Source: Polyangia bacterium (GTDB taxonomy: Bacteria; Myxococcota_A; Polyangia; Polyangiales; Sandaracinaceae). Taken from it: a stretch of 44,365 nt of DNA. The notes beneath the pieces were generated by a model, which saw nothing but the letters and a program-made list of their open reading frames with translations, had not been told where the DNA came from and did no database searches. Of the stretch, positions 27,881-41,582 are shown piece after piece. Where the stretch lies: contig JAUHXR010000032.1 of the NCBI GenBank assembly GCA_030426845.1, forward strand, positions 1 to 44,365, written 5' to 3'. The position numbers and the translations under genes are program-made. Position 1 is the stretch's first letter. Each line of letters opens with the position of its first letter.

Positions 27881-30040
27881 ATGAAGCGAGGCGTGTTGCG
27901 CGTCGCGGCCGCGATCGGCGTCGCGGTCGCCGCGTACCTCCTCGTGCCGCCCTACCCGCGCGCCGGGCTCGAGACGCGCTCTCTCGCGTCGACCCGCATC
28001 CTCGATCGCCACGGCGCGCTCCTCTACGAGCAGCGGGCGAGCGCGGGGGGCTACGGCCGCTGGGTCGAGCTCGACGCGATCGCCGAGCCGCTGGTGCTCG
28101 CGACGCTCTCGAGCGAGGACGCCGGCTTCTATCGTCACCCCGGCGTCGACCCCGGCGGGGTGGCTCGGGCGCTCTGGCTCAACGCGCGGGCCGGCCGGGT
28201 GGCCTACGGGGGGTCCACGATCACCCAGCAGCTCGCCGGCCTGCTCCAGCCGCGGCCGCGCGACCTGCGCGGCAAGCTCCTCGAGGCGATCGACGCGGTG
28301 CGGCTCGAGCGCGCTCTCGATAAGCAAGCGATCCTGACACACTACCTCAACCGCGCGTACTACGGGCGCCTCGCCTACGGCGCGGAGGCGGCGGCGCAGC
28401 GGTTCTTCGGCGTGCACGCCGACGCGCTTCGGCTCGATCAGGCGGCGCTGCTCGCCGCGCTCCCGCGCGCCCCGAGCGCCTACGACCCCGCCCGGCACCC
28501 CGAGGCGGCGCTCCGGCGCCGACGCCACATCCTCACCCACATGGCCGCCCGCGGCTGGATCTCCGAGGGCGACGCGGAGGCGGCCGCGGCCGCGCCGCTC
28601 GACCTGGTCGACGCGACCCAGACGCCGCACGCGCGCCACCTCCTCGACCACCTCCAGCTCACCGGGGCGATCGCGCCCGGCGCGCCGGAGGCCCGGACCG
28701 CCCTCGACCTCGGGCTCCAGCGCCGCCTCGAGGCCCGGCTGCGGATGCACCTCGAGGACGTGCAGGACCGCGGCGTGACCCAGGCCGGCGTCGTCGTGAT
28801 CGACAACCGCACGGCCGAGGTCCTCGCGATGGTCGGCTCGCGCCGCTACGGCGAGCGCGACGTGCAGGGCGCGGTCAACGCGACCACCGCCGCGCGGCAC
28901 CCCGGCAGCGCGCTGAAGCCCTTCGTCTACGCGCTCGCGCTGGAGCGGGGCGACGCGCCGTCGAGCCTCGTGCTGGACGCGCCCGCCGAGTGGCGCGACT
29001 ACCACCCGCGCGCGCTCGACCTCCGGCACCGCGGCCTCGTGACCTACCGGGACGCGCTCGGCGGATCGCTCAACGTGCCCGCGGTCCGGGTGGCGGAGCG
29101 GGTCGGGCTCGACGCGCTCGGCCGGCTGCTGCGCGACGCGGGGATGGACACCGTCGACGAGGACCCACGCCGGTACGGGCTGGCGCTCGCCCTCGGCGCC
29201 GCGCCGGTGCGCCTGATCGATCTCGCGGGCGCGTACTCCGCCCTCGCGCGCGGCGGCGTCTACCGGCGACCCGCGGTGCTCGCGGGCGAGGGCGGCGAGC
29301 CGCGGCGGATCCTCTCGGAGGCGACCGCGTACCAGCTCTCCGACATGCTCGCCGACGCCGGCGCGCGGCGGGCGGTGTTCGGGCCGGAGACGCCCCTCGA
29401 GCTGCCGTTCGCGGCCGCGGTCAAGACGGGCACCTCCCAGGCCTACTGCGACAACGTCGTCGTCGGGTACACACCCGAGGTCACGGTCGCGGTGTGGGTC
29501 GGCAACTTCGACGGGGAGCCCATGCGCGGCGTGCTGTCCATGGTCGGCGCGGCCCCGCTCTGGCGCGACGCGATGCTCGCCGCGATGGAGGGCCGGGCCC
29601 GGCGCGGCTTCGCGCGGCCCGCGTCGGTGGAGCGACGCCCGGTGTGCCCGGCGTCGGGCCAGCCCGTCGGGCCGAGCTGCCCGCACGCCCGGATGGAGGA
29701 GCTGCGAGCCGGCGTCGAGGCGACGTGCGATGTGCATGGGTCCGGCGCGGCGCCGGGCGGCGCGCGCGGACCGCGCATCCGGAGCCCGGCCGACGGCGCG
29801 ATCTTCGTGATCGACCCCGCGCTGCCGCGGAGGAGCCAGGCGATCCCGCTGCGCGCGGACCTGCCGGCGTCCGATCCACGGGCGCGGTGGGCGGTGGACG
29901 GGGTGCGCGTCGCGGAGACCGACGCGCGGGGGACCGCCTACTGGGCGCCGACCCCGGGGCGGCATCGAGTCGGGCTGAGCAGCGCGTCGGGCGAGGCGCA
30001 GATCGAGCTGACGGTGGAAGGGCCGGAGGAGGAACGATGA
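27881..30040 (+). CDS. pbpC: Penicillin-binding protein 1C (bifunctional peptidoglycan synthase)
   Basis: A 719-aa protein from the ATG at 27881. An N-terminal signal anchor (about 4-22) is followed by the glycosyltransferase family 51 domain: E79-D-A-G-F-Y-R-H and GGSTITQQLA. The transpeptidase domain has S343-A-L-K346, S396-L-N398 and K515-T-G517. The C-terminus (about 610-719) is the BiPBP_C domain (IRSPADGAIFVIDPALP). It polymerises and cross-links peptidoglycan in the periplasm. Its stop overlaps the ATG of the alpha-2-macroglobulin gene (ATGA), the usual arrangement of this pair. All catalytic motifs are intact. The upstream gap holds paired dyads. Confidence 0.95.
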   Translation: MKRGVLRVAAAIGVAVAAYLLVPPYPRAGLETRSLASTRILDRHGALLYEQRASAGGYGRWVELDAIAEPLVLATLSSEDAGFYRHPGVDPGGVARALWLNARAGRVAYGGSTITQQLAGLLQPRPRDLRGKLLEAIDAVRLERALDKQAILTHYLNRAYYGRLAYGAEAAAQRFFGVHADALRLDQAALLAALPRAPSAYDPARHPEAALRRRRHILTHMAARGWISEGDAEAAAAAPLDLVDATQTPHARHLLDHLQLTGAIAPGAPEARTALDLGLQRRLEARLRMHLEDVQDRGVTQAGVVVIDNRTAEVLAMVGSRRYGERDVQGAVNATTAARHPGSALKPFVYALALERGDAPSSLVLDAPAEWRDYHPRALDLRHRGLVTYRDALGGSLNVPAVRVAERVGLDALGRLLRDAGMDTVDEDPRRYGLALALGAAPVRLIDLAGAYSALARGGVYRRPAVLAGEGGEPRRILSEATAYQLSDMLADAGARRAVFGPETPLELPFAAAVKTGTSQAYCDNVVVGYTPEVTVAVWVGNFDGEPMRGVLSMVGAAPLWRDAMLAAMEGRARRGFARPASVERRPVCPASGQPVGPSCPHARMEELRAGVEATCDVHGSGAAPGGARGPRIRSPADGAIFVIDPALPRRSQAIPLRADLPASDPRARWAVDGVRVAETDARGTAYWAPTPGRHRVGLSSASGEAQIELTVEGPEEER

Positions 30041-33000
30041 GCGGGAACATCCAGAGGAGCGCGCGGTGGGTGGTCGCCCTCGCGATCGGGGCGGTGGCGG
30101 TGACGACCTGCGGGCTCGCGACGCTGGACGGCGGGGAGGCCGAGGGCCAGCTCGCGCCCGTCGCGCCGCCGGTCGCCCGGTCGACGCGGGGCCAGCCGGC
30201 GCCGAGCCCGCGCGCCTGCCAGGCGGCGAGCGGCGAGCCGAGGCTGCTCGAGGCGCGAACGACCTGCGCGGGCTGCGCGCCCGACGCGGTGGTGGTCGAG
30301 CTCACGTTCGATCGGGTGGTGGACACCGTCGAGACGCTCGGACGCATCCAGGTGTCGCCCGACGCGCGGCTCGAGTCGCGCTCCTCCCGGTGCGCGCGGC
30401 GCGTCCTCGTGGGCGGCGCGCTCGCGGCCCAGACCGACTACACGTTCACGATCCCTGGCGCGCCCGGCGAGCCGCCGCGCGAGCTCCTCGTGGAGACCGG
30501 CGGCGGCTACCCGCAGCTCCGGATGCCGGCCCCGATGGCGGTCCTCGCCCCGGGGGCGGGCCTGCCGATCCAGCTCACGCAGGTCCGGCGCCCGCGGCTG
30601 CGCGTCCTGCCGCTGACCGCCGACGAGATCCCGACCGCCGCGCGTGCCTCCGGTGTCGTGCCCTCGGACCGCCGCGCTGAGGATCTGCTCCCCGAGCAGT
30701 GGCGCGGCCGGCTCACCGAGGTCGCGCTCGATCCCGCGGCCGCCGACGAGGACGGCGTGCAGCACGTCGATCCGTTCGGCGCCGGGGACGGGCCGGTCCT
30801 CGCGATCCTCGAGGCGCCCGGGGCCGCGAGCCGCGTCACCATCGCCCAGCGCGCGCACCACTCCGTCGTGCTCAAGGTCGGCCGCGCGGGCGGCGTGGTG
30901 TGGGTCGCCGAGCCCCGGACGGGGCGACCGGTGAGCGGCGCGGCGGTCACGATCTACGAGGGCACCGACCGTCGGTTCTCCGGCCGGACGGACGGGGACG
31001 GCCTCCTCCGGCTGCCCGAGGAGTCGCGGCTCCGCCGGGGCGCGGCGGTCGACGGCTCCCCGCCGCGACGCGGCCGCCGCCGGATGGTCTCGAGCGTCGC
31101 CGCGCCGCTGCGCGCGGTGGTGAGCGCGGGCGGGCGCGTGACCTACGCGAGCGAGGCGTTCCGCACCGGCATCGAGCCGTGGCAGCTCGGCCTCCCCCAC
31201 GGCTACGGCGCGGGCGAGGCGCGCGGCATGATCACGGCGGAGCGCGGCATCTACCGGCCGGGCGAGACGGTGCACCTCCTGGGGATCCTCCGCGAGCTCT
31301 CGCCGGAGGGCGCGCTGCGGGCGCCGCGCGGGCGCGTGCGGATCACCGTCGTCGACCCGGACGGCACCGCGCTGCGAGACACGCAAGTCGGCTTGAGCCC
31401 ATACGGCACGCTTCGCGAGGAGCTCAGCCTCGGCGCTGGGGCGCGCCTCGGGCGCTACCAGGTGGCCGTGCGCACGCCGAGCGGCGCGGAGCTGCGCGGT
31501 CGCTTCGAGGTCGGTGAGTACCGCGCGGACTCCTTCGCGGTCGAGGTCGCCCCGCCGGGGCCGGCCGAGCTGGACGGCGGCGAGCTCGTGCTCCCCGTGT
31601 CCGCGCGCTACCTCTACGGGGCGCCGCTCGCCGGCGGCCAGGCGGAGTGGACGCTGCACTGGCGACCGCGCCGCGTGCAGGTCGCGGGCGCGCCGGGCTT
31701 CGTGTTCGGCGACCCGGAGGTGGACGACTACGCGCGCTTCGTGACGTCAGGCCAGGTGGCGCTGGACGCGACCGGGCACGCCGAGGTGCGCCTGCCGCGC
31801 GCGCTGCTGCCCGACGGGGAGGGCGCGCAGGCGATGGAGCTGATCTTCGAGGCGTCGGTGATGGACGAGGCGGGCGACACGGTGGCCGGCCGCACGGTGC
31901 AGTCGCTCTCGACCGGCGACGTCTGGGTCGGGCTCAAGACGGACCGCTGGGCGGTGTCGCACCAGGCGGGCTGGACGATCCAGGTGGCGGCCGTAGACCC
32001 GCAGGGCGCCCTGGTGGCCGGCCACCCGATCCGCGTGCGGCTGGTCCGGCCCACGTGGCGCACCCACGCCGAGCGCGGTCGCCACGGCGTCCGCTACGAC
32101 GGCGAGTGGGAGGACGTGGAGATCGCGGCGCGCGAGCTCACCTCGGGCACGGCGCCTCGCGAGGAGCGCTTCGCGCTGCCGGGCGGCGGGCGCTACCGCG
32201 CCGAGCTGCTCGACGAGGGCGGCCGCGTGCTGGCCGAGGTCCAGGTCTACGCCTACGGCGGCGAGGTCGACGCGCCGGTGCTGAACCACCCGCGCGTGGA
32301 TGTGCTCGCGGACCAGTCGAGCTACCGGCCGGGCGACACCGCGTCGCTCTTCCCCCAGGTCCCGTGGGCGCGCTCGCTCGCGCTCGTCACGGTGGAGCGC
32401 GAGGGCGTGATGGAGGCGCGGGTCGAGACGCTCGATGGCCCGGGCACCCCGATCCGCGTGCGCGTCGACGATCGCCACGCGCCCAACGTCTTCGTCGGCG
32501 TCGCCGCGCTCCCGATCGGCGGCGAGAGCCCGGCGAGCGGTGTCCCGCTGCGCGTCGGCTACCGCGAGCTCACGGTGAGCCCCGAGCAGCGGCGGCTCGA
32601 CGTCGAGGTGCGGCCGAGCGAGCGCGAGCTCGAGCCCGGGGAGGAGGCGGAGGTCGATGTGACGGTGCGGGATCACCGCGGCCGCCCCGTGCGCGCGGAG
32701 GTCACGCTCTGGGCCGCCGACGAGGGCGTCCTGCGGCTGACCGGCTACCAGACGCCCGACCCGTTCGCGCCGGTGCACGCGCGCCGCAGCAGCCAGGTCA
32801 CCACCGCGGCGAGCCTCGCGCAGTGGACCCAGCCCGACCCCTACACCTGGCCTGACGGCGGCGGGGACGCGCCGGCCGAGGGGGCGTCGGCGCTTCGCTC
32901 CCGCTTCCTGAGCACCGCGTTCTTCTCGCGCCGCGCCGTCGTCACCGACGGGGCGGGCCACGCGCGCGTGCGCTTCGAGATGCCGGACAACCTCACCGAG

Positions 33001-34974
33001 TGGCGGGTGATGGCCGCGGTCGCCGATCGCGGCGACCGGTTCGGCAGCGCCGAGGCGCGCGTGACGACGAGCAAGCCGCTGAGCGCGATGCCGAGCCTGC
33101 CGCGCTTCCTCACCCAGGGGGACCTCGTCGACGCGGGTGTGGTCGTGCACAACCACACCGGCGAGGCCGGCACGGCCACCGTGCGGCTCGCGGTCACCGG
33201 CCCGGCCCGGATCGTCGGCGGGGACGTGCGACGCGTCGAGGTCGCGGACGGCGAGCGGATCCCGGTGCGCTTCACGGTGGTCGCGGCGGGGACCGGCGAG
33301 GTCGGCGTCCGCGCGATCGCGACGCTCGGCGAAGCACAAGACGGCTTCCAGGTCGCGATTCCGTCGCACCCGCCGACCACGGTGACCACGCGCCGGATCA
33401 GCGACGGTGAGCTGAGCGGCTCGCGGGAGCAGTGGCTCCGCGTCCCCCGCGGCGCGCTCCCCGGCGAGTCCGAGCTCGTGATCAATGTCTCACGCGGCGT
33501 CTACTCCGAGATGGAGTCGGGCATCGACTCGCTCATCGAGTATCCGCACGGCTGCGTCGAGCAGACCACATCGCGGCTCATCCCGATGGTGCTGCTCGAG
33601 GAGGTCCTGCGCGACATGGGCGACCCGAGGCTCTCGGGGGACGCGCACCGACGGCGCATGGACGAGGCGATCGCCCACGTCCTGCGTCACCAGAACGACG
33701 ACGGCGGGTTCGGGCTGTGGCCCACCTCGAGCTCGGAGGGGTTCTTGACGGCCTACGCGCTGTGGGGCCTGCTCACCTCGCGCGACCACGGCTACTCCGT
33801 CGACGCGCAGGTCATCGAGCGGGCGACCGCCTACCTGGAGGAGCACGCGAGCCACGGCGACGACATGCACGGGCAGTTCTCCGACCGCGAGATCGAGCCC
33901 TTCGCCGCCTACGTGCTCGCCCAGGCGAGGCGCGACGATCACGGGCTCGCGGATCGGCTCTCGGCCGAGCACGGCACCCTCAGCCAGTTCAGCCTCGGGC
34001 TCCTCGCGGACGCGCTCCAGCGGCGCGAGCGCGCGGGCGTGGCGCCGCTCCTGGCCTCGATCGACCAGAGCGCGCGGCCGTCCTCTGGCGGCGCGCTGAT
34101 CGAGGACCCTCGCGGCGCCGGCGACTACATGAGCTACGGCTCCGACGTCCGCGCGACCTCGAGCGCGGTCCAGGCGATGATCGCGAGCGGCGATCGCGAC
34201 GGAGCGGCGCGGCTGATCGGAGGGATCCTCGGCGAGCGCCGCCGCGACGGAGGCTGGGGCACGACCTACAACAACATGTGGGCGCTCTACGCGCTCACCT
34301 CCTACGCGCGCTCGGCGCCCGCGCCCCGCGGCGAGGCGGCGAGCGTCGCGGTGCGGATCGACGGACGTGAGGTCGGGCGCATCCCGCTCGGCGCGAACGC
34401 GGCGTCCCGTCAGATCCGGATCCCGGCGTCGTCGCTGCCGGCTCCTGGGGGCGGAGCGTCGCTCGTCCTGACGCCGCCGCGCGGCCAGAACCTCCGCTTC
34501 AGCGCCCGGCTCCGGTACGTGCCCGGGGCCGATCAGCAGCCGCCGGTCAACCGTGGGCTCCAGGTCACGCGCGAGCTCCACGACGCGGTGACCTCCGCGC
34601 CGGTCGCTCACCCACAGGTGGGCCAGCTGGTGCGGGTCACGCTGCGCCTGCGGGCGAGCCGGGACACCGAGCAGGTCGCCCTCACCGACTACCTCCCGGC
34701 CGGGCTCGAGCCGGTGGATCAGCGCCTGGAGACCCGCGGCGGCGCCGGGGTGGACGTAGGCGGAGCGGGCTGGGAGTGGGTCGCGATGCACGACGAGCGC
34801 GTGACCTTCTTCGCGCGGAGCGTCCGCGGCGATCGGGTGGCCGAGTACCTGGCGCGGGTGACCCGGAGCGGCGAGTTCGTTCGGCCCGCGCCTCGCGCGG
34901 AGGCGATGTACGACCCGGAGGTCTACGGCGTCGGCGCGCTCGAGCGCGTGGTGATCACCCAGCCCGCTCCCTGA
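30037..34974 (+). CDS. Bacterial alpha-2-macroglobulin (thioester type), partner of PbpC
   Basis: A 1645-aa protein from the ATG at 30037, behind GGAGGAGGAACG. Residues 10-25 form an export segment ending VTTC25; the -1 Thr is unusual for a lipobox, so lipidation is likely but not certain. Macroglobulin domains run to about 950 (for example YRPGETVHLLGILREL, RGIYRPGE). The A2M core (FEMPDNLTEWRVMA) leads to the thioester motif GC1173VEQ; Val replaces the common Leu of CLEQ, and the Cys and Gln that form the bond are present. A thioester-domain helical toroid and a receptor-binding-like C-terminus follow. The protein is thought to trap attacking proteases in the periplasm while PbpC repairs the wall. 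Confidence 0.95.
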   Translation: MSGNIQRSARWVVALAIGAVAVTTCGLATLDGGEAEGQLAPVAPPVARSTRGQPAPSPRACQAASGEPRLLEARTTCAGCAPDAVVVELTFDRVVDTVETLGRIQVSPDARLESRSSRCARRVLVGGALAAQTDYTFTIPGAPGEPPRELLVETGGGYPQLRMPAPMAVLAPGAGLPIQLTQVRRPRLRVLPLTADEIPTAARASGVVPSDRRAEDLLPEQWRGRLTEVALDPAAADEDGVQHVDPFGAGDGPVLAILEAPGAASRVTIAQRAHHSVVLKVGRAGGVVWVAEPRTGRPVSGAAVTIYEGTDRRFSGRTDGDGLLRLPEESRLRRGAAVDGSPPRRGRRRMVSSVAAPLRAVVSAGGRVTYASEAFRTGIEPWQLGLPHGYGAGEARGMITAERGIYRPGETVHLLGILRELSPEGALRAPRGRVRITVVDPDGTALRDTQVGLSPYGTLREELSLGAGARLGRYQVAVRTPSGAELRGRFEVGEYRADSFAVEVAPPGPAELDGGELVLPVSARYLYGAPLAGGQAEWTLHWRPRRVQVAGAPGFVFGDPEVDDYARFVTSGQVALDATGHAEVRLPRALLPDGEGAQAMELIFEASVMDEAGDTVAGRTVQSLSTGDVWVGLKTDRWAVSHQAGWTIQVAAVDPQGALVAGHPIRVRLVRPTWRTHAERGRHGVRYDGEWEDVEIAARELTSGTAPREERFALPGGGRYRAELLDEGGRVLAEVQVYAYGGEVDAPVLNHPRVDVLADQSSYRPGDTASLFPQVPWARSLALVTVEREGVMEARVETLDGPGTPIRVRVDDRHAPNVFVGVAALPIGGESPASGVPLRVGYRELTVSPEQRRLDVEVRPSERELEPGEEAEVDVTVRDHRGRPVRAEVTLWAADEGVLRLTGYQTPDPFAPVHARRSSQVTTAASLAQWTQPDPYTWPDGGGDAPAEGASALRSRFLSTAFFSRRAVVTDGAGHARVRFEMPDNLTEWRVMAAVADRGDRFGSAEARVTTSKPLSAMPSLPRFLTQGDLVDAGVVVHNHTGEAGTATVRLAVTGPARIVGGDVRRVEVADGERIPVRFTVVAAGTGEVGVRAIATLGEAQDGFQVAIPSHPPTTVTTRRISDGELSGSREQWLRVPRGALPGESELVINVSRGVYSEMESGIDSLIEYPHGCVEQTTSRLIPMVLLEEVLRDMGDPRLSGDAHRRRMDEAIAHVLRHQNDDGGFGLWPTSSSEGFLTAYALWGLLTSRDHGYSVDAQVIERATAYLEEHASHGDDMHGQFSDREIEPFAAYVLAQARRDDHGLADRLSAEHGTLSQFSLGLLADALQRRERAGVAPLLASIDQSARPSSGGALIEDPRGAGDYMSYGSDVRATSSAVQAMIASGDRDGAARLIGGILGERRRDGGWGTTYNNMWALYALTSYARSAPAPRGEAASVAVRIDGREVGRIPLGANAASRQIRIPASSLPAPGGGASLVLTPPRGQNLRFSARLRYVPGADQQPPVNRGLQVTRELHDAVTSAPVAHPQVGQLVRVTLRLRASRDTEQVALTDYLPAGLEPVDQRLETRGGAGVDVGGAGWEWVAMHDERVTFFARSVRGDRVAEYLARVTRSGEFVRPAPRAEAMYDPEVYGVGALERVVITQPAP

Positions 34975-35020
34975 GGGGCGCCGGCGCGTCGCTCCTCGAC
35001 CCAACCGCCTCGCGCGGAGG

Positions 35021-35026
35021 TAGACT
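35021..35026 (+). promoter_or_regulatory. -10 element (TAGACT) of the kinase gene
   Basis: TAGACT lies 7 nt before the TTG at 35034, in a 59-bp gap. It predicts a leaderless transcript starting at the TTG. Confidence 0.45.
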
Positions 35027-35033
35027 GCGCCCC

Positions 35034-38000
35034 TTGCTGCGCGAGAAGCTCCAGGCCAACGACCGGATCGGGCCCTACCGCGTCGTCGACGTCCTCGGCC
35101 GCGGCGGGATGGGGGTCGTCTACCGCGCCGAGGACCCCCGCGGCGAGGCGGTCGCGCTGAAGACGGTGTTCAGCGAACGCGCGCACCACGTCGCCTCCAT
35201 CCGCCTCGAGATCAGCACCCTGGCGCGCATCCGGCACCCGGGGGTCGTGCGGGTGCTCGACCACGGCCTCCACGACGGCGCGCCCTGGTACGCGATGGAG
35301 CTGCTCGAAGGCCAGACCCTGCGGGACATCATCCGGCGAGACGACGCCCCCGCCCCGCTCCCGCTCGGCGAGGCCCTGCGGCTCGCGCACCGGGTGTGCG
35401 AGCCGCTTGCCTTCCTGCACGGCGAGGGCGTGGTCCACCGCGATCTCAAGCCGAGCAACGTGTTCCTGCGCGACGGGCGGGAGCCGGTGCTGGTCGACTT
35501 CGGGCTCGTGCAGCGCTTCGGGGGCACGGGGCGCCGCGAGACGCTCCAGGAGGGCGAGCAGCCGCCGGCGGGGACCTACCTCTACATGTCGCCCGAGCAG
35601 CTCGCCGAGGGCGTGCTCGATCCGCGCGCTGACATCTACGCGCTCGGCTGCCTGCTCTACGAGATGGTCGTCGGGCGGCCGCCGTTCCGCGGCAACGTCC
35701 TGCAGCTCACCGTCAAGCACCTGCAGGAGGACCCGACCCCCGCGTCCGCCCGCGTCGAGGGGGTGCCGCGTGAGCTCGACGATCTGCTCGCCAGCATGCT
35801 GCAGAAGCGCCCGACCGATCGCGCGGGCTACGCGGCCGACGTCGCGACCCGGCTCGAGCGCGTCGCGGCCGCGATCGGCGCGCCGCTGCAGGCCGGCGCG
35901 CCGGGGCCCACGCCGCGCGACTACCTCTACCGACCGGACGTCGCGGGCCGCGAGCGAGAGCTGCGCGAGGTCGAGCGAGCGATCGACGATCCCGCCACCA
36001 CCCTCGTGCTCCTTCACGGCCCGAGCGGGGTCGGCAAGACGCGCGTCGCGACCGAGCTGGCCAAGCGCGTCCGGCTCGCGGGGCGACGCGTGGCCAAGGG
36101 CTCCTGCGAGCCGCTCGCCGGCGCGCGGCGCGGGGCCGGAGGCGCGCCCCTGCACGGGCTCCGCGGGGTGCTCCGAGAGGTCGGCGACGTCTGCCGCGGC
36201 GCGGGCGAGGCGACGACGCGCCGGGTGTTCGGGCCGCGCGTCGCGGTGCTGGCGATGTTCGAGCCGAGCCTCGAGGACCTCGTGCCGCGCGAGGCCACCG
36301 CCCCGGCGTGGCTGCCCACGACGGAGGCCTCCCGGCGCCGCCTGCACACGTGGCTGGCGGAGACGCTCACCGCCTACGCGCGAGAGCAGGGGCTCGTGGT
36401 CTTCGTCGACGACGTGCAGTGGGCGGACGAGGTCTCGCTCGGCTTCCTGCGCGCGGTGGCGGAGCGCAGCGTGCCGACGACCGGGCTCACCGTCGTCTGC
36501 ACGTGCCGCGACGAGAGCCCGTCGATCGAGGCCCTGACCACGCCGCGCGGCGGGCTCGACGTCCGGGTCGGTCCGCTCGGCCCGGGCGCGGCGGCCTCGC
36601 TGATCGGCGACATGCTCGGCCACGCGGTGGTCCCGCGCGAGCTGACCGAGCGCGTGATGGAGCGGACCGCGGGCAACCCGCTGCATCTCAGCGAGTTCCT
36701 CCACGCCGCGGTGGCGCGAGGGGTCCTGCGGCGGGACGCCGAGGGCGTGTGGCGGCTGCGCGACGAAGCGGGCGCGCTCGCGGCGCCCCAGACGATCGGG
36801 GAGCTCGCCGCGCTCCGCATCGACGCGTACGGCCAGGTCGCGCGCCAGCTCCTCGAGCTGTTCAGCGCGGCTGGGACCAGCGCCTCGACCGACCTCCTCG
36901 CCGACGCGTCCGAGCTCGGGGAGCTGGACGTCCTCGAGATCGCCGGCGAGCTGATCGCCCAGGGCGTGCTCGAGGAGGACGAGCAGGGCGCGCTGCGCTT
37001 CGCCCACGCGGCGCTGCGCGAGTCGGTCTACGCGCGGATCGAGCGACCCCGCCGGCGCGCGCTTCACCGCCGCGTGGCGGAGGCGCTCGAGGCGCGGGGG
37101 GGCGCGGATCCCGCGGCGCTCGCGACCCACTGGGACCGCGCCGGCGAGCCCGGCCGCGCCGCCCCGCGCTACCTCGAGGCCGCGATGCGGGCGCAGCGCC
37201 AGACCGCGTCCGCGCGCGCCTACGAGCTGTTCGAGCGGGGCTTCGCGCTCGAGCAGGAGACCGGGCGCGCGCCCGACGACGATCTCGACCGGCGTCGCCT
37301 CGAGCTCGCCTACGGCGCGGCGCTCTCCGGGACGGGGCGGCTCGAGCAGGCCGAGCGGGTGCTCAAGCGCACCCTCGAGGCGCTCGGGGCGGCCCTCCCG
37401 ACCCGGCGCGCGGGCTGGGCCGCTCACTCGCTGCGCCAGCTCTTCGGTCACGTCAGCGGCCTTCGCCGCGGGCCGGCGGGCCCCGACGAGACCGACCTCG
37501 CGCTCGAGGCCCTCGAGCTGCTCAACGCAATTCTCATGGCGCGCGCCGACACGCTCGGCCAGGTCGCGACCGCGCTGACCGCCGGCAACCTCGCGGCCAG
37601 CGCGCGGCGCGGCGACGCGAGCGCGGTGGGCCACGCGCGCATGGCGGTCCTCGCCGGCCTCGCGGGGATGGAGTCCCTCTCGGAGCGCTACCTCTCGCAG
37701 GCACGCGACGCGAGCGCGGGCCAGCCAGTGCCGCCTCGTGTCTACGCGAGCGAGGCGCTCGTGCACCTCGCGCGGGGCCGCTGGCATCGGCTCGAGGCGC
37801 TCGTCGAGCCCGCCGTCCAGGCGTGTCAGACAGCGGGCGACTTCCAGTCCGAGGTCCAGATCCGGCTGTACGCGGTGGGCGCCGCGGTCGTGCGCGGGCG
37901 CCCGGTCGACTGCGCGCGTCAGCTCGAGCCGGCCCTCGCGCTCGCCGAGAGCCACGGCTACGCGATCGAGCGCGTCCACCTCCTCGGGAACCGCGCCGCC

Positions 38001-38588
38001 GGCCTCGTGCTCGCCGGTGACACGCGGGCTGCGCGCGATGCGCTGGACGCTCACGCGGCCTCCCTCGTGAGCGGCGAGGATCCCGTCGCGACCACGCTCG
38101 CGCGCGTGCTCGACGCCGCGGTGACCCTGATGGAGCGACCGAGCCGCGCGCGCCCCGCCGCCGACGCGGCCCGCGCCGCGCTCGCGAGCGTGCCGCGGGG
38201 CAGCCCGGGCTACGTCGTCCACCACCTGTTCCTCCCGGCCGTCTACCTCGGCCTCGCGGAGCGCGGAGACCGCACGGCGCTCGGGCCGGCGCGCGCGCTG
38301 ACCGACGCGCTCGCCCGGCAGGGTCGGGCGCAGCCCGCGGCTCGGCCGGTGGCGACGCTCTTCCGCGCGATCGCCGAGCGGCTCGCAGGGCGGCCGGACG
38401 ACGCCGCGCGCACGCTCGACGAGGCCGAGGACGGAGCGGCTCGCCTGGGGCTCGACTGGGCCGCGGGAGTGGCCGCCTTCGAGCGCGCGCGGGCCGGCCG
38501 CGCGTCGAGCGACGAGGCGCGCCGACGGCTGTCCGCGATCGGCGCGGCGCACCCGCCCTACCTCTACGCTCGGCCGGGCGAGAGCTGA
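35034..38588 (+). CDS. Ser/Thr protein kinase fused to AAA/STAND-type ATPase and TPR region (1184 aa)
   Basis: Start TTG at 35034 (MLREKLQANDRIGPYRVV), chosen because the kinase domain starts at once and a -10 is 7 nt upstream; no Shine-Dalgarno. Kinase domain about 10-280: GRGGMGVVYRAED, ALKTV, H135-R-D-L-K-P-S-N, D155-F-G, SPEQL. ATPase domain about 300-560: Walker A G329-P-S-G-V-G-K-T, Walker B VVFVDDVQWADE. The rest (about 700-1184) is TPR-like helices. It is probably cytoplasmic, with no membrane helix. Such proteins sense a signal through TPRs and the NTPase and phosphorylate targets. The cyclase-oxygenase gene begins only 12 bp downstream, but with its own -10. Confidence 0.93.
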   Translation: MLREKLQANDRIGPYRVVDVLGRGGMGVVYRAEDPRGEAVALKTVFSERAHHVASIRLEISTLARIRHPGVVRVLDHGLHDGAPWYAMELLEGQTLRDIIRRDDAPAPLPLGEALRLAHRVCEPLAFLHGEGVVHRDLKPSNVFLRDGREPVLVDFGLVQRFGGTGRRETLQEGEQPPAGTYLYMSPEQLAEGVLDPRADIYALGCLLYEMVVGRPPFRGNVLQLTVKHLQEDPTPASARVEGVPRELDDLLASMLQKRPTDRAGYAADVATRLERVAAAIGAPLQAGAPGPTPRDYLYRPDVAGRERELREVERAIDDPATTLVLLHGPSGVGKTRVATELAKRVRLAGRRVAKGSCEPLAGARRGAGGAPLHGLRGVLREVGDVCRGAGEATTRRVFGPRVAVLAMFEPSLEDLVPREATAPAWLPTTEASRRRLHTWLAETLTAYAREQGLVVFVDDVQWADEVSLGFLRAVAERSVPTTGLTVVCTCRDESPSIEALTTPRGGLDVRVGPLGPGAAASLIGDMLGHAVVPRELTERVMERTAGNPLHLSEFLHAAVARGVLRRDAEGVWRLRDEAGALAAPQTIGELAALRIDAYGQVARQLLELFSAAGTSASTDLLADASELGELDVLEIAGELIAQGVLEEDEQGALRFAHAALRESVYARIERPRRRALHRRVAEALEARGGADPAALATHWDRAGEPGRAAPRYLEAAMRAQRQTASARAYELFERGFALEQETGRAPDDDLDRRRLELAYGAALSGTGRLEQAERVLKRTLEALGAALPTRRAGWAAHSLRQLFGHVSGLRRGPAGPDETDLALEALELLNAILMARADTLGQVATALTAGNLAASARRGDASAVGHARMAVLAGLAGMESLSERYLSQARDASAGQPVPPRVYASEALVHLARGRWHRLEALVEPAVQACQTAGDFQSEVQIRLYAVGAAVVRGRPVDCARQLEPALALAESHGYAIERVHLLGNRAAGLVLAGDTRAARDALDAHAASLVSGEDPVATTLARVLDAAVTLMERPSRARPAADAARAALASVPRGSPGYVVHHLFLPAVYLGLAERGDRTALGPARALTDALARQGRAQPAARPVATLFRAIAERLAGRPDDAARTLDEAEDGAARLGLDWAAGVAAFERARAGRASSDEARRRLSAIGAAHPPYLYARPGES

Positions 38589-38600: not shown

Positions 38601-41582
38601 GTGAGCGACATCGATCGGGCGGCCCTCGACCGGGCCATCGAGCGCGGCCTCGCCGCGGTGTGGGCCCACCAGCTTCCGGGCGGCGCGATCGACGGGACGA
38701 ACCGAGGCGGGCCGCTCTACGCCGGCATCGCCCTCGCCGCGCGCGCGCAGATCGGCGCGCTCGACGCGCAGGATCGCGGGGCGGTGGTCGACTGGATCCG
38801 CACGACCCAGCTCCCCGACGGCAGCTACCCGGCGAGCCCGCGCAGCACCTGGGGCACCCTCGACTCGACCGCCGCGACCTACGCGGGTTTGAAGGCGGCG
38901 GGCGTCGACGACGACGACCCGGCGCGCTCGCGCGCGTGGGCGTACATCCAGCGCCACGGGGGCCTCGCGAAGGTGAACCCGATGTACTTCCCGACCCTCG
39001 CGGTGTCGGGCCTGCTCTCCCCCGAGGAGCTGCCGTCGCCGTACCTGTTCGTGCAGCTCGTGCCCTTCCTCCAGACGGTCATGGGGCGGCACTTCAACCA
39101 GTGGATCGGGATGAGCGCGGACCTCAACCCGCTCATCACGCGCGGGCTCCTCGACGCGGGCCACCGCGCGTCGTGGCTGGTCCACCCGCTGCGTCGCCTC
39201 GAGGAGGAGCGCATCCTCGACTTCATCCGCGACGTCCAGAACCCGTCGGGGAGCCTCTCGGGCGTGCTCATCTACACCGCGCAGCTCGTGAGCAGCTTCG
39301 CGCTCATGGAGGTGCCGGAGGAGGACCCGCACTTCGTCGCCGCGCGCGAGGCCCTCGTCAGCTTCCGCGTCCCGAACGAGCACGGGATGGAGTACATGCC
39401 GTGCACCGCGGAGATCTGGAACACCGCGGAGGCGATCCGCGCCACGATGCGCGCGGGCGGCGACCCGAACGAGCCCAAGGTCGCGGCCGCGATCGAGTGG
39501 CTGCTCGCGCGCCAGACCACGGTGGACGCGCCCGAGAGCTGGCAGAACCCGCGCCCGCTCGCGCCGCGCCAGGGCGGCTGGCCGTTCGAGGCGACGAACG
39601 TGCAGAACCCCGACTGCGACACGACCGCCGCCGCGCTCCACGCGCTCGCGTTCGTGCTCCGGCGCGAGGAGCTCCCCCGGGTGCGCGAGGCGATGCGGCG
39701 CGGGATCGACTGGCTGCTGCCGATGCAGAACGACGACGGCGGCTGGCCCAGCATGACGCGCGGCGTCGGGAGCAAGCCGCCCGGCCCGTTCCACAAGCAA
39801 CCTTTCTGGCCCCCTACGACCCTCCCCGAGATGCTCAAGGTGGCGATCCACCCGCCGCTCGAGCTGCAGGACCCGGCGACGGCGGCGATGACCGGCCGGA
39901 TCATCCGCGCGATCGCGGACTGCGGCGTCGACGAGGCCGGCCAGCGACAACTCCGGGAGGCGACCGCGTTCCTGGAGGCGCAGCAGTACATGGACGGCTG
40001 GTGGGGCCGCTGGGAGGTGAACTGGATCGCGGGCACGGCCTACGGCCTGATGGGCGTGGCCGGGGTCGACGTCGACCCGCGCGCCTCGTGGGTGCAGCGC
40101 GCCGCCGCGTTCATCGCCGCGCGCCAGAACGCGGACGGGGGCTTCGGCGAGGGCACCGAGACGTACCGCGACGATCACGCGAAGGGGCCCTGGCCGTCGC
40201 GCGCCGATCTCACGGGCAAGGCACTGCAGGGCCTCGTCGACGCGCGCGGGGTCGAGGACCCGGCCGTCCAGCGCGCCGCGCGCTACCTCCTGGACACCCA
40301 GCGCGAGGACGGCACGTGGGAGATGGAGGACGGCGAGTACGTGATCCTGCCGCCCGACCTCTTCTACACGAACCCGCTCTCCAACCTCGTCGACGCGGTC
40401 GAGGGCCTCGTCTACCTGCGGGAGCGGCTCGACGGCGAGCAGGACGCACCGCTGACCACCGACTGGTCGGACGACAAGCTCGACCGGATGCGGCAGCTCG
40501 GCGACGAGCGCGCGGACGCGGTGGTGAAGGCGCTCTTCGAGGCGCACTCGACCGAGGAGGTGAGCCGCGTCTTCCACGCGCTCGTGAAGAACGACGAGCC
40601 GGTCCCGGACGACCTCCCGCCGGCGGTGCGCGCCTTCTTCGACGAGACCGAGGGGCTGCCGAGCTGGGCCAACGACGCGCTCATCGAGCGCGGCGAGGAG
40701 GCGTTCGGCGAGCACGGGATGAGCATGATCTGCGGGCTGTTCTGCAGCGCGCTGCCCCACGCCTACTGCGCGGCCAAGGGGGCCACCGTGCTCCTCGAGA
40801 CCGGGCGCATGGTGAGCGACTTCACGCGCCGGATCGTCGAGACCGCGCAGTTCGTGATGGACGTGATGGCGCCCGGGGGGCTGCGCGGTGAGGGGCGCGG
40901 CCTGCGCACGACGCAGAAGGTCCGGCTCATCCACGCCGCCGTCCGCCACATGCTGCTGCAGCGCGGGTGGGATCGGGAGGCGCTCGGCGTGCCGCTGAAC
41001 CAGGAGGACCTCGCCGGGACGCTCCTGACCTTCTCGATCGTCATCCTCGACGCGCTCGACGTCATGGGCATCGCGCTGCGCCCGGAGGAGCGCCGCGCCT
41101 ACCTGCACTGCTGGCGCTGCGTAGGCCACACGCTCGGGCTGCGCGACGACATGATCCCGAAGGACCTGGAGGACGCCTACGCGCTCTACGCCGCGATCCG
41201 GCGGCGTCAATTCCGGCCGAGCCCGCAGGGACGCGAGCTGACGGGCGCGCTGCTCGACGCGATGGCGGGGTATCTGCCCGGCACGATGTTCGACGGCGCG
41301 TCCGCGGTCTACGTGCGCCGCTTCCTCGGCGACGACCTCGCGGACGGCCTGGGCGTGCCGCCGACCAACTGGACCAAGCTCGTGTTCGACGCGGAGACCT
41401 TCGTCGCCCGCCTCTTCGATCACGAGACGGAGCGGAGCGCGTTCCTCGCGAGCCTCACCGGCAAGTTCGAGCGCCGGCTCATGGAGGGCCTGTCCGCCGC
41501 CTACCGCGGCGGCAAGCAAGTCGACTTCCGCATCCCCGCCACGCTGAGCGCGCGGTGGGGGATCGCGCCGAGGTCAGGCTGA
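38601..41582 (+). CDS. Squalene-hopene-cyclase-like terpene cyclase fused to MpaB/Lcp-type heme oxygenase domain (993 aa)
   Basis: Start GTG at 38601. Residues 1-640 match the whole length of bacterial squalene-hopene cyclases: QW-type repeats (QLPDGSYP, QNDDGGWPS, QNADGGFGEG, QREDGTWEM), the strongly conserved W468-G-R-W-E-V-N-W-I, and ELQDPATAAMTGRI. The acid motif DXDDTA reads D338-C-D340-T-T-A: the middle catalytic Asp is kept, the next Asp is Thr. Residues about 685-930 match the MpaB/rubber-oxygenase (DUF2236) domain: R769-T-T-Q-K-V-R-L-I-H-A-A-V-R and YLH836CWRCVGH843TLGL, with His candidates for heme. No transmembrane helix is obvious. It may cyclise a triterpenoid or related lipid and then cleave or oxidise it. 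Both domain calls are firm; the reaction is not known. Confidence 0.88.
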   Translation: MSDIDRAALDRAIERGLAAVWAHQLPGGAIDGTNRGGPLYAGIALAARAQIGALDAQDRGAVVDWIRTTQLPDGSYPASPRSTWGTLDSTAATYAGLKAAGVDDDDPARSRAWAYIQRHGGLAKVNPMYFPTLAVSGLLSPEELPSPYLFVQLVPFLQTVMGRHFNQWIGMSADLNPLITRGLLDAGHRASWLVHPLRRLEEERILDFIRDVQNPSGSLSGVLIYTAQLVSSFALMEVPEEDPHFVAAREALVSFRVPNEHGMEYMPCTAEIWNTAEAIRATMRAGGDPNEPKVAAAIEWLLARQTTVDAPESWQNPRPLAPRQGGWPFEATNVQNPDCDTTAAALHALAFVLRREELPRVREAMRRGIDWLLPMQNDDGGWPSMTRGVGSKPPGPFHKQPFWPPTTLPEMLKVAIHPPLELQDPATAAMTGRIIRAIADCGVDEAGQRQLREATAFLEAQQYMDGWWGRWEVNWIAGTAYGLMGVAGVDVDPRASWVQRAAAFIAARQNADGGFGEGTETYRDDHAKGPWPSRADLTGKALQGLVDARGVEDPAVQRAARYLLDTQREDGTWEMEDGEYVILPPDLFYTNPLSNLVDAVEGLVYLRERLDGEQDAPLTTDWSDDKLDRMRQLGDERADAVVKALFEAHSTEEVSRVFHALVKNDEPVPDDLPPAVRAFFDETEGLPSWANDALIERGEEAFGEHGMSMICGLFCSALPHAYCAAKGATVLLETGRMVSDFTRRIVETAQFVMDVMAPGGLRGEGRGLRTTQKVRLIHAAVRHMLLQRGWDREALGVPLNQEDLAGTLLTFSIVILDALDVMGIALRPEERRAYLHCWRCVGHTLGLRDDMIPKDLEDAYALYAAIRRRQFRPSPQGRELTGALLDAMAGYLPGTMFDGASAVYVRRFLGDDLADGLGVPPTNWTKLVFDAETFVARLFDHETERSAFLASLTGKFERRLMEGLSAAYRGGKQVDFRIPATLSARWGIAPRSG

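Follow-up and report, generated by a model that had tools for sequence, protein, structure and literature searches.

An uncultured myxobacterium carries, in the 44,365-nucleotide stretch of DNA analysed here (the window), a gene that joins a class II terpene cyclase of triterpene type to an MpaB/Lcp-type haem oxygenase (Table 1). Two conserved active sites and the genetic linkage of the two families lead us to infer that the product is, on balance, probably a bifunctional terpenoid enzyme, combining cyclisation with oxidative C=C cleavage of one isoprenoid.

One frame encodes two complete folds

The reading frame is free of internal stops over all 993 codons. Pfam searches of its translation returned SQHop_cyclase_N (residues 49-146, E = 1.3e-24) and SQHop_cyclase_C (271-576, 1.8e-57), both above cut-off, together with MPAB_Lcp_cat (PF09995; 727-930, 6.3e-30, 105.4 bits against a gathering cut-off of 23), and a PDB sequence search found squalene-hopene cyclase (7.9e-47) and LcpK30 (1.4e-26) as solved relatives. 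For the AlphaFold model (mean pLDDT 87.3, pTM 0.72) the window protein was aligned with 34 proteins encoded at related loci, and both folds are covered over their whole length. A preliminary description of this DNA had read the gene as a cyclase fold and an MpaB/Lcp-type oxygenase in one protein and had proposed structure prediction as a check; the intact frame, the Pfam and PDB matches and the predicted structure, in which a complete cyclase and a complete LcpK30-like oxygenase are modelled, bear that reading out. Both halves had been recognised correctly but their extents need revision, as the cyclase ends near residue 612 rather than 640 and the oxygenase occupies about 360 residues (617-978) rather than 300. 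Because independent MAGs carry the fusion as well, an assembly artefact could be ruled out as its source.

Table 1. Positions of the fused gene, its parts and its immediate neighbours in the window.
Feature	Coordinates	Strand	Basis or remark
Fused gene, class II terpene (triterpene-type) cyclase + MpaB/Lcp-type haem oxygenase	38601..41582	+	993 aa, GTG start
Cyclase half, residues 6-612	38616..40436	+	VIA-align to 2sqc: Z 46.9, rmsd 2.5, 573 residues
Acid motif D338-C-D340 (= AaSHC D374-V-D376)	39612..39620	+	alignment to AaSHC
Short linker, about residues 613-621	40437..40463	+	low-pLDDT block near 611-620
MpaB/Lcp-type oxygenase half, residues about 617-978	40464..41534	+	VIA-align to 5o1l (LcpK30): Z 29.7, rmsd 3.8, 339 residues
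R744 to T748 (= LcpK30 R164 to T168), active-site Arg and Thr	40830..40844	+	alignment to LcpK30
H778 (= LcpK30 H198), proximal haem ligand	40932..40934	+	alignment to LcpK30
Ser/Thr kinase-AAA_16 protein, upstream	34776..38588	+	Pkinase 3.4e-44, AAA_16 2.1e-20; start uncertain
Downstream gene, 206 aa	41595..42215	+	12 bp after fused gene; no Pfam family

The cyclase half departs from hopene cyclases

Comparison of the AlphaFold model with VIA-align identified the double alpha-barrel fold of the class II triterpene cyclase superfamily throughout the cyclase half. Seven QxxxGx-type repeats occur there (at residues 24, 70, 213, 376, 462, 509 and 567), five of them in the form QxxDGx[WFY]. The fold and the QW-type repeats are shared with the squalene-hopene cyclase of Alicyclobacillus acidocaldarius (AaSHC; 1sqc/2sqc), as are the acids D374 and D376 and residues W312, F365 and W489, although the two proteins are only 25% identical and the window cyclase is fused to an oxygenase. 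D338 and D340 are kept in every cyclase relative aligned. A full DxDD motif is the squalene-hopene cyclase form, oxidosqualene cyclases carrying other forms; the window cyclase reads DCDT, with T341 at the place of the third Asp (AaSHC D377), and the full motif is present in 12 of 12 other fusions aligned. AaSHC D447 and S309 correspond to A429 and A270, so that the window copy is unlike most relatives, which keep Asp, Asp and Ser/Thr at the three positions. The change of AaSHC H451 to Arg is common to nearly all other bacterial cyclases aligned and is therefore no mark of decay.

The C-terminal segment, which steadies late cations in these cyclases, reads GFP..FYL.Y..Y in the ordinary cyclases aligned and PPDLFYTNPLSN in the window cyclase, and an altered late-ring segment of this kind makes incomplete cyclisation plausible. 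The half scored 220.1 bits with the squalene-hopene cyclase equivalog TIGR01507, far below the curated cut-off of 431.1.

On another contig, the same genome encodes an oxidosqualene-type cyclase, squalene-epoxidase-like and squalene-synthase domains and an ERG2-like gene. Since a separate sterol-type cyclase is present, the fused enzyme is not the housekeeping copy, and this gene set suggests that the host probably makes squalene and has the fused enzyme as an extra cyclase. Sterol synthesis is known in Sandaracinaceae (PMC12004948). The squalene-epoxidase-like and squalene-synthase domains share one 1143-aa frame in the window's genome (L144:1135-4566; L numbers denote loci), followed by the ERG2-like gene, and are also found in one frame at L190:6488-10786 and L189:1258-4782 (minus strand). 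Three relatives in the window's family join a squalene-epoxidase-like flavoenzyme to an oxidosqualene-type cyclase in one long frame (L190:3669-7160; L191:2888-6352 and L189:5693-12571, both minus strand). Two of these frames encode about 1,150 aa, and in L189 the start is probably overcalled.

The oxygenase half keeps the haem-site residues of LcpK30

Beyond sharing the fold of LcpK30 (5o1l/5o1m), the oxygenase half places R744, T748, R775, H778 and R782 where LcpK30 has R164, T168, R195, H198 and R202, and all five are identical in 49 of 49 MpaB sequences aligned. The haem ligand residue is present, and a b-type haem site is predicted in this half. In LcpK30 the H198A and R164A muteins are inactive and T168A retains 2% of activity (Ilcu and others, PMC5522427). 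Two positions differ: the window protein has K726 for E148, a position that is not conserved in the MpaB alignment, and E747 in place of the distal ligand K167. E148 is conserved in characterised Lcps and its muteins have strongly reduced activity, and K167 is just 59% conserved among Lcps (PMC5522427). As the oxygenase half stands behind a cyclase, it is probably no secreted rubber enzyme.

These two differences would suit a haem half that oxidises the cyclised product without cleaving it, by hydroxylation, epoxidation or dehydrogenation, as the Rieske oxygenases encoded beside sister cyclases (L041, L044, L046) presumably do; an amine-oxidase-type flavoenzyme at L178 and L173 points the same way. 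We consider this unlikely, as the equivalents of R164, T168 and H198 are invariant, the K167 position varies among the Lcps themselves, and C=C cleavage is the reaction of the characterised MpaB and Lcp enzymes in the excerpts of PMC12724181 and PMC5522427 on which we draw. Cleavage, which we favour, is what the same excerpts of PMC12724181, with the work cited there, ascribe to MpaB-family enzymes, on isoprenoid or alkene chains. MpaB of mycophenolic acid biosynthesis and bacterial C=C cleaving oxygenases such as Nro1 (Purwani 2024, via PMC12724181) share the family MpaB/PF09995 with the window protein and act on isoprenoid or alkene double bonds; unlike it, they are described in those excerpts as single proteins, with no terpene cyclase partner mentioned.

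Fusions and split pairs recur in Myxococcota

Full-length fusions numbered 14 including the window's, all in Myxococcota. Within the window's order, 4 of 184 genomes have one, all in a single family. A scan of named genomes yielded nine further fusion loci, in MAGs named Myxococcaceae, Archangium, Archangiaceae or Myxococcales, and relied on two cyclase peptide patterns, so that fusions elsewhere may have been missed. A draw from the phylum (3 of 379 genomes with a fusion) contributed one more, L169, in a distant family. The preliminary description had raised conservation of both the fusion and the kinase beside it; the fusion is conserved across these genomes, but the upstream kinase only in part.

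Five loci have the cyclase and mpaB as separate neighbouring genes, in both orders: cyclase first in L042/L068, L049 and L070, mpaB first in L071 and L038. A frame split in relatives had been named beforehand as evidence against the fusion. Such splits do occur in these five loci, yet the split copies adjoin, with a 4-bp overlap in L042 and L049, and thus support the pairing rather than refuting it. At about 15 MpaB loci of the subfamily we found no neighbouring cyclase.

To determine the number of fusion events we relied on quick trees with long branches. The oxygenase-half tree placed twelve fusions in one group (support 100), and the cyclase-half tree recovered the same twelve (support 95) with a solo cyclase, S_G180, and the split pair L068 inside, which suggests that the oxygenase half was lost or split off there. 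The window cyclase paired with a solo cyclase of G356 (support 99). Forcing the window together with the 12 other close fusions, as one origin of all fusions would require, was rejected on the cyclase half (AU p 0.0007); on the oxygenase half a single clade of fusions was not rejected (p 0.52 and 0.78). Because the trees were quick and long-branched and the group to be tested was chosen with the tree already in view, a separate fusion event in the window's lineage, or an exchanged cyclase half, is likely but not proven.

The rarity of the fusion in the samples of order and phylum is what one would expect from a chance joining of two unrelated neighbour genes that share no pathway. That account is highly improbable: neighbour pairs occur in both orders, distant families have fusions, the halves were probably joined more than once, and the cyclase partner is exchanged as described below.

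Candidates for further fusions of MpaB with long N-terminal parts (L170, L172, L187) were rejected as overlong frames, those parts having no cyclase match and no mutual likeness and looking, by eye, Arg/His/Gly-rich. A 789-aa protein has two MpaB domains (L180:1988-4357), and MpaB is fused to a DUF2515-like part at L188:7883-10129 and to a TerB-like part at L184:2663-4597, both on the minus strand.

The same oxygenase subfamily accompanies a second cyclase family

In five related loci (L047, L048, L051, L053 and L182) the gene directly after a same-subfamily MpaB encodes a transmembrane terpene cyclase of Pyr4 type (PF25129; scores of about 70 to 93 bits, cut-off 27). These cyclases fill the same role as partner gene but are unrelated membrane proteins, encoded by a neighbour gene instead of a fusion. 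A whole-genome search of the four host genomes found five PF25129 genes, exactly those beside MpaB; at L181, a sixth MpaB is adjoined by a PF25129 match on the opposite strand. As the loci were retrieved with an SHC-MpaB protein as query, there was no selection for the Pyr4-type gene. A search of the window's own genome found no Pyr4-type cyclase.

A genetic tie of this oxygenase subfamily to terpene cyclases of two unrelated kinds thus recurs, and nothing speaks more strongly for the oxygenase working with a terpene cyclase of whatever fold than this swap of partner. Together with the fusions and split pairs, it makes the MpaB subfamily look like a dedicated partner of terpene cyclases. We found no publication on MpaB paired with Pyr4, nor, in literature on SHC or terpene cyclases with MpaB, rubber oxygenase or latex clearing protein, a description of the cyclase-MpaB/Lcp architecture, both searches covering papers outside subscription. 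A fungal paper retrieved for DUF2236 and terpene cyclases was set aside as unrelated on the strength of its title and abstract. Both parent families are known singly; their joining was not found described.

Proposed function

Both folds are complete in the one polypeptide, which also keeps the acids of the cyclase and the haem-site residues of Lcp/MpaB. Of the two-step conversion suggested in the preliminary description, the idea that two enzymes of one protein work on one isoprenoid is supported by the folds, the catalytic residues, the 14 fusions, the five split pairs and the Pyr4-type swap. In the proposed mechanism D340 would act as the acid that protonates a terminal isoprene, the chain folding into one or more rings, and the haem half would bind O2 on its H778-ligated haem and cut a C=C bond of the same chain to carbonyl ends. 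Our first choice of order is cyclisation followed by cleavage of the remaining tail, because the altered late-ring C-terminus may leave an uncyclised tail.

The reverse order is nearly as likely. Taken as an explanation of its own, a variant of the one we prefer, it is possible, if somewhat doubtful, that the haem half first cuts a long polyprenoid down to a chain with a carbonyl end, which the cyclase then folds with oxygen terminating. Squalene-hopene cyclases accept short oxygen-bearing chains, which counts for this order. So does the presence of -CH2-CHO and -CH2-COCH3 ends on Lcp cleavage products (excerpts of PMC5522427). The order of domains in the protein gives no direction.

Weighing against a bifunctional enzyme in either order are the low hopene-cyclase score (220 against 431 bits), the departures at D377, D447 and S309, the lack of conservation at E148, and the roughly 15 MpaB loci without an adjoining cyclase. 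From the fusions, the split pairs and the Pyr4-type swap taken together one would predict that a terpene cyclase's substrate or product is what the oxygenase subfamily acts on; if true, this would give a substrate class to this subfamily of haem proteins. Cyclic terpenoids with cut chains would then become accessible, and one catalyst would carry out both cyclisation and ozonolysis-like cleavage; the data suggest an undescribed biosynthesis of cut or oxidised terpenoids. As a tentative generalisation, Myxococcota may possess kinase-linked single-protein synthases that ring-close and oxidatively cut one isoprenoid into shortened cyclic terpenoids (apo-terpenoids), with a second cyclase family, unrelated to the first, served by this oxygenase subfamily as well.

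Neighbouring genes

The kinase-ATPase regulator that had been noted next to the fused gene was confirmed by Pfam as a Pkinase and AAA_16 protein; its kinase domain lies at 35076-35831 and the gene ends 12 bp before the fused gene. In L169, L173, L174 and L071, too, a kinase-AAA_16 gene of the same orientation stands immediately upstream, as do other kinases in L070 and L146. Of 93 adjacent genes in related loci 14 encoded kinases, compared with 12 of the 436 other genes (Fisher p 1.7e-5), an indicative figure, obtained with a simple gene caller on loci chosen by likeness to the fused protein. The window's own genome has at least 151 kinase matches.

An upstream Ser/Thr kinase and this enrichment would fit a protein in which one half alone is catalytic, the cyclase barrel having become a lipid-binding or sensory module, which would hand a terpenoid to the oxygenase or signal to the kinase, and so would the changes in the window copy at D377, D447 and S309. 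This is quite unlikely: D338 and D340 occur in every relative, the 12 other fusions aligned have the full DxDD, and replacement by another cyclase family is easier to reconcile with a common activity than with a common binding fold. For the bifunctional enzyme that we prefer, the upstream kinase probably regulates the protein or its expression.

The downstream gene had been taken for DUF2378-like, an assignment that fails, as it matched no Pfam family even at E 10 and a profile built on the DUF2378 proteins of seven related loci gave it -1.8 bits. A DUF2378 family gene does adjoin the fusion in seven Myxococcales loci (one by Pfam, the others by likeness).

Upstream of the kinase, the window encodes a large bacterial alpha-2-macroglobulin (28990-34974). 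Directly downstream of sister cyclases that lack MpaB lies a gene for a Rieske ring hydroxylase, at L041:10521-11612 (assigned by Pfam) and at L044:10693-11802 and L046:11303-12568 (by likeness), and related solo cyclases are adjoined by an amine-oxidase-type flavoenzyme gene at L173:5473-7344 (minus strand) and L178:1842-3512.
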